From positions 1 through 16,751 of the forward strand of contig NZ_JAKJHX010000118.1 of the NCBI RefSeq assembly GCF_021648855.1: a DNA stretch of 16,751 nt. The letters are read 5' to 3'. Made by a program: the position numbers and the translations under genes. The notes under the pieces are model-generated. The model ran no database searches, was not told the DNA's origin, and saw only the letters and a list, made by a program, of their open reading frames with translations. This document shows positions 14,820 through 15,070 of the stretch, one piece after another. Source of the DNA: Tychonema litorale BBK16. Lineage in GTDB: Bacteria; Cyanobacteriota; Cyanobacteriia; Cyanobacteriales; Microcoleaceae. Numbering within the stretch: the stretch's first letter is position 1; the number at the start of each line of letters is the position of its first letter.

Positions 14820-15070
14820 ATGTGTCGTTTGCTTGGCTATCTCGGCAGGCCGATTTTACCAAAAAACTGGGTCTAAAGCCCCTTCTTCAGTGGCCGGCTT
14901 TAATTCGAGTGTAAAGATTCCCAAGAATCCCCACGCCTTCAGGCCCGGGAGTGTCAATCGATTCTCTTCTGTACAAGCCCGAACATTCCTTAATTGTGCA
15001 GAGTTACCAACCGCGCGAAATGACTTCTGGGCTGCTGAATGCCGACGGTTTTGGCATTGGCTGGTATCAC
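14820..15070 (+). pseudogene. egtC: egtC remnant (glutamine amidotransferase of ergothioneine synthesis), interrupted and truncated
   Basis: The frame starts MCRLLGYLG with Cys2, the nucleophile of class II amidotransferases such as EgtC, but stops at TAA (14875-14877) inside an inserted element. Skipping 14860-14957 rejoins codons as [15 protein letters not shown] with no frame change and continues VQSYQPREM, then [13 protein letters not shown], which is EgtC sequence. After WYH (15070) the match ends and EgtB-like sequence begins, so roughly the last three quarters of egtC are missing. EgtC removes the gamma-glutamyl group from the hercynyl sulfoxide conjugate. This copy cannot work. Confidence 0.88.
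14860..14957 (+). mobile_element. 98-bp IS200/IS605-type miniature element (PATE-like) in egtC
   Basis: The element lies directly after TTAC (14856-14859) and ends in TCAA (14954-14957), the target and right-end tetranucleotides known for IS608-type IS200/IS605 elements. It has a subterminal left hairpin (AAAGCC...GGCTTT, about 14875-14901) and an imperfect right hairpin (CCCCACGCC TTCA GGC..GGG). It has no coding capacity, so it would have moved with a TnpA supplied in trans. No target duplication is present, as expected for this family, and exact removal restores the egtC frame. Confidence 0.8.

Follow-up and report, generated by a model that had tools for sequence, protein, structure and literature searches.

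Insertions reduced to the two ends of a transposon have been described before. In Haloquadratum walsbyi they are called palindrome-associated transposable elements (PATEs), and excerpts of their description (PMC3119063) present them as ends-only derivatives of IS605-type elements with near-terminal palindromes, no inverted terminal repeats and no target duplication; they are multi-copy, their cores were lost through direct repeats, and one PATE of 52 bp comes from a 1500-bp parent. A PATE-like sequence of Halanaerobium hydrogeniformans, in the part of the report concerned with it (PMC7290912), is a single relic of IS605 ends among many decaying IS605 elements, comprising 58 nt of tnpB along with ends of 28 nt (left) and 160 nt (right). 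IS608 of Helicobacter pylori carries both tnpA and tnpB, and excerpts of PMC5934647 name TTAC and TCAA as the sites of cleavage, with AAAG and GAAT as the guides. In this study we characterize an insert in the genome of a cyanobacterium, presumably a filamentous one, that resembles all three. It shares the general features of the Haloquadratum PATEs listed above, its palindromes being predicted hairpins, but it is present in one copy and its fusion is free of repeats. Like the Halanaerobium sequence it is a lone relic whose genome holds many other IS605 elements in decay, but it consists of ends only (61 + 37 bp). It has the borders and guides of IS608 at equivalent places, whereas its parent carries tnpB only.

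The window, by which we mean the whole stretch of 16,751 nucleotides that was analysed (Tychonema litorale BBK16, contig NZ_JAKJHX010000118.1), carries an interrupted egtC on its forward strand. The product of this gene takes part in making the antioxidant ergothioneine. Codons 1-13 and the first base of codon 14 stand 5' of the insert (14820-14859; 95.7% identity over 14814-14859 to locus L015 of a relative) and end in TTAC (14856-14859), the target and left cleavage site (C_L). The insert of 98 bases follows (14860-14957), ending in TCAA, after which the gene resumes with TC GAT and continues to codon 53 (14958-15078; 90.9% to L015 541-661); the body of egtC is missing beyond 15078. The first-pass annotation had placed an IS605-type insertion with TTAC and TCAA borders here, and its coordinates proved exact to the base, with borders and guides being those of IS608. 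It had also described the egtC frame as interrupted by the insert and restored by its removal; the joined flanks are indeed collinear with the intact egtC of a relative, though only codons 1-53 are restored. Empty sites, which it had advised looking for in sister strains, were found in relatives. Among 29 relative loci compared, 26 span the insertion point and are ungapped there, 24 of them from 24 genomes of the same genus and two from the same order. The site reads TTAC followed by T in 24/24 same-genus loci and in one of the same-order loci, the other having GGGC followed by T. The three further loci are L031 (genome G006), which ends 13 bases before the site, and L026 and L029, which gave no match. 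As the empty sites show, the insertion took place without target duplication, 3' of a fixed tetranucleotide. Our literature searches found no report of this insertion.

The first 61 bp of the insert (14860-14920, forward strand) are the left end (LE) of a TnpB-only IS605-type element and agree at 61/61 bases with a copy on contig C113 of the same genome, in which base 61 is followed by the beginning of tnpB. The remaining 37 bp (14921-14957, forward strand) are the right end (RE), 100% identical to right ends on contigs C133, C72, C37 and C11. Because both parts are identical to separate element ends in the genome, the insert is not a product of chance. The 98-base stretch is thus confirmed as a genuine insertion with exact borders, and its kind is known. 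Folding predicts an LE hairpin at 14874-14902, with the guide AAAG at 14875-14878; the RE holds the guide GAAT (14925-14928), a weak predicted hairpin (14930-14949) and TCAA (14954-14957). All four IS608 tetranucleotides (C_L TTAC, C_R TCAA, G_L AAAG, G_R GAAT) are present at equivalent places, and both guides stand 5' of the predicted subterminal hairpins, as in IS608-type ends. As a whole the 98-mer folds no better than shuffled sequences (z -0.27). It is too short for any protein and has an IS605-type parent; it is an ends-only PATE. At the fusion point (14920-14921) a core of ~1.25 kb is missing, and the two ends share no base there.

The same ends occur elsewhere, as the first-pass annotation had expected. 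When the genome was searched with the insert and the best 40 of 76 candidates were scored, only the window covered all 98 bases, and the other matches lay within bases 1-61 or 62-98. These 40 include twelve other left ends (six 100% over 48-61 bp, six 98% over 46 bp) and six other right ends (four 100% over 37 bp, two 95%). TTAC precedes all seven of the other left-end loci that were read. In a blastn comparison on partly the same loci it stood before 7/9 left-end rows (TGAC and TCAC before the other two), and TCAA closed 13/13 right-end rows. Nine full-length parents, 1346-1356 bp long and complete at both ends, are distributed over six congeneric genomes; they are preceded by TTAC in eight cases and TTAG in one, and end in TCAA in 9/9. 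Their tnpB is one long frame in seven (390-409 codons, stop to stop) and split in two. No other frame above 125 codons was found on either strand of the nine, and hence no tnpA; the parent is therefore TnpB-only. Among the other loci examined for paired ends were L047, where the window's own genome has a copy of 669 bp, and L152, a 3725-bp composite; L052, L060, L061 and L153 had no such pair.

Copies of the whole 98 bp, which the first-pass annotation had also suggested searching for, were absent from the rest of the genome, the LE/RE fusion occurring once at up to three mismatches. A strict LE-gap-RE pattern matched only the window among 29 genomes (the window's genome, G000, and 28 congeners); this pattern describes one hairpin form with zero mismatches, so that divergent miniatures slip through. 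One such case is found in G018, where this element family has left another ends-only relic, 89 bp long, after TTAT and with a different fusion (L149 528-616, G018:C49). It is the one other match over bases 1-98 (74%) among the matches listed, with at most 31 candidates scored per genome. The exact 18-base junction was also found in six records of unrelated organisms among GTDB representatives, a set that may lack records close to the window, and we took these hits as chance.

Besides the insertion egtC-egtB bears large deletions, and the insert by itself is no clear evidence that an intact gene was hit. As reference we used L015 (G026), where EgtC scores 334 bits, over the cut-off, and EgtB 355 bits, just under the cut-off of 360. 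A first deletion of ~839 bp removed the greater part of egtC together with the beginning of egtB, its junction at 15078-15080 joining L015 position 661 to 1501. Its right side is an egtB remnant (15080-15290, forward strand; 89.6% to L015 1501-1711) whose translation is in frame with the egtC remnant, the frame 14951-15523 running from egtC into egtB. A further egtB remnant (15361-15440, forward strand) has 80% identity, with gaps, to L015 1732-1808. It ends at a second deletion of ~622 bp of egtB (junction 15434-15440, L015 1808 to 2431), which joins two GCGATCG motifs, one from each end of the lost segment. This suggests recombination between the GCGATCG repeats, a motif that we take to be HIP1-like. 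The egtB remnant is also interrupted at 15291-15376 by short repeats of the types GGAAGGAAGAAGG and CCCAATTCCC; similar repeat-coded residues are seen in the frames of L014.

Base changes in the remnants were compared with those of relatives. Against 21 relatives, the egtC remnant has six synonymous and two non-synonymous changes unique to the window and no stop, one of the two non-synonymous changes lying in the last codon before the deletion. Without selection a non-synonymous share of 71-77% would be expected (P 0.003-0.01 against no selection). As a control, six near relatives have 0-1 unique egtC changes each. The egtB remnant, with one synonymous and one non-synonymous unique change, is uninformative; the intact egtD has 14 synonymous and eight non-synonymous changes in comparison to 17 relatives, many of them cut by the locus end. 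The few non-synonymous changes suggest that egtC stayed functional for most of the branch and that its lesions are recent.

The first-pass annotation had gone further and read egtC as intact when the element landed. This does not follow, since the two large deletions are not orderable against the insertion, and the base changes only suggest selection on egtC until recently. It might be that the deletions came first and the element entered a gene that had already been inactivated, an order to which we give slightly less than an even chance. The presence of both deletions speaks for it, as do the ends of the insert, which have not diverged from the other copies in the genome, and the loss of egtC/egtB by other lesions in G006 and G025, which shows that such loss is tolerated. 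However, the egtC remnant has drifted little, which suggests that all lesions are recent. Such an order would be compatible with either of the two origins of the 98-bp unit considered next.

Site, ends, parent element and the fact that the genome has the fusion only once are direct observations. As to how the fusion arose, we narrowly favour the loss of the core in place over the arrival of a ready-made miniature. In the favoured sequence of events, a TnpB-only element of the IS200/IS605 family with IS608-type ends would have inserted into codon 14 of egtC, 3' of TTAC and with no duplication of the target, presumably through a Y1 transposase supplied in trans. Its core of ~1.25 kb would later have been lost, most likely in place, which would have fused the 61-bp LE to the 37-bp RE and left the PATE of ends alone. 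By its appearance the insertion is recent; egtC-egtB has at least two further lesions. We consider this account, full-length insertion followed by core loss, a little better than an even bet. A single fusion in the genome and none in the 28 congeners is what would be expected if it had formed in place, and the relic in G018 with its different fusion indicates that core loss recurs independently. Points against this account are the lack of a direct repeat at the fusion, in contrast to the core losses of the Haloquadratum PATEs, and the folding of the 98-mer, which does not exceed that of shuffled sequences.

Alternatively, the element might already have been 98 bp long when it arrived, an IS608-like TnpA having moved it in trans, which is what the first-pass annotation had supposed; we regard this as plausible, with a chance of about two in five. 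The unit has retained C_L, C_R, G_L and G_R, its single copy is compatible with one hop, and the 52-bp PATE of Haloquadratum may be mobile according to excerpts of PMC3119063. However, the several short-form copies by which a mobile PATE is recognised were not found, there being one copy in the genome and none in the 28 congeners by the strict pattern, and the junction recurred only in the six unrelated GTDB-representative records, a set from which near-window records may be left out. Nor was an intact cognate TnpA for these ends seen in the fragmented assembly. Three matches to Y1 (PF01797) were found in the genome: an intact frame on contig C82 among GCGG-type, REP-like repeats; a fragment with a stop on contig C176, the first bases of which also hold a tnpB match; and a partial match barely above the cut-off. 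BLAST with the ends of the insert found neither end around any of the three in this fragmented assembly. The C82 gene, which presumably resembles RAYT, was set aside as the cognate TnpA in view of the GCGG-type repeats around it and the absence of both ends by BLAST, in a region that contains two runs of N.

A wider search for a helper covered 34 stretches with Y1 matches, 29 of them from among the matches listed. In L178 (97-1860, G026:C56) a tnpA and a tnpB in divergent orientation adjoin a right end 89% like that of the window, and this element is a possible helper family for these ends. In L165 a tnpA adjoins a right end of 81% likeness; the left and right ends of L174 are 77% and 81% alike, the left ends of L176, L177 and L181 71-76%, and L182 has a 25-base left-end match (96%). 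A helper may therefore once have been present in the window's genome, or be present there outside the assembled sequence. Such TnpA-bearing congener elements with related ends make a mobilised miniature slightly likelier and core loss in place slightly less so. With these points weighed, core loss in place still fits at least as well as the mobilised unit, and the interpretation of the first-pass annotation is partly supported overall. That an assembler skipped the core of a full-length copy in egtC is very improbable: the repeat does break the assembly, since of the twelve left ends elsewhere that match at 98% or more, 10 lie within ~105 bp of a contig end (one lies at 462 bp, and the distance is lacking for the match on C63), but the fused ends have no overlap that an assembler could join, and both flanks belong, in order, to a single gene. 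Taken alone the insert is a routine transposon relic, yet its parent, empty site and fusion point are unusually clear, which makes it useful for asking how IS605 cores disappear without direct repeats.

The gene context is more interesting than the insertion itself. Downstream of the scars lies an intact egtD of 348 aa (15643-16689, forward strand), an L-histidine N-alpha-methyltransferase gene (TIGR03438, 408 bits, cut-off 290.9). In a profile comparison of the 29 genomes, an OvoA-like sulfoxide synthase exceeded the cut-off in four (G000, G006, G025 and G026). In the window's genome it lies distant from the window's egtD (L082 6217-7569, G000:C10), and this second EgtB scores 589 bits with TIGR04344 ovoA_Nterm (cut-off 400). 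We rejected its assignment as the selenoneine synthase SenA (176 bits against a cut-off of 420). Excerpts of PMC9516567 and PMC11993508, citing Liao & Seebeck 2017, mention that another sulfoxide synthase has been recruited to cyanobacterial ergothioneine synthesis, and one of the two names it OvoA. In G000, G006 and G025 the OvoA-like gene is the best EgtB match, with no other above 63 bits among the matches listed, and in G006 and G025 the operon-1 site is deleted or rearranged. At L031/L085 (G006:C267, ~478-481) nearly the whole of egtC-egtB is gone, the first ~27 bases of egtC being left and egtD intact. G014 has weak matches only (EgtB 58 bits, EgtD 20 bits, among the matches listed).

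Loss of egtB1 with egtD1 kept was found in 3/4 genomes with the OvoA-like gene versus 0/25 without it, a set that includes G014 and the incomplete G003 (74%) (Fisher P 0.001, or 0.004 with G014 scored as a loss; the genomes are not independent). Within this genus, the species that have lost the standard egtC/egtB while keeping egtD all possess the alternative sulfoxide synthase, so that functional replacement is directly testable. In G026 the OvoA-like gene adjoins a second egtD (egtD2), which has been excised in the window's genome (reference 7427/8699), while a different pair of deletions is common to G006 and G025. The reverse pattern occurs in G018, G008 and G017, where egtD2 is present without the OvoA-like gene and egtB1 and egtD1 are kept. 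Loci of these reciprocal losses are L082, L083, L084, L088 and L159-L161; no report of reciprocal egt loss was found in our literature searches.

Species were grouped by a one-gene tree of window 2142-3415, read as tyrS, in which G000 pairs with G011 at a support of 0.82. G006 and G025 stand apart from it, in a group with G026, G003 and G018 (0.99). Because of this separation the losses were probably parallel. It appears somewhat more probable than not that an ancestor had egtC-egtB-egtD together with an egtD2/OvoA-like pair, and that three species lost egtC/egtB and egtD2 by different lesions, keeping EgtD1 and the distant OvoA-like enzyme, with the transposon scar as one step of this reciprocal loss. 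Two redundant ergothioneine gene sets would thereby have been reduced to a single hybrid route of EgtD1 and the OvoA-like enzyme, which may be functional. At the contig end after egtD (16700-16751) the window closes with tandem copies of the short unit CAATTCACAGTAGGGG.
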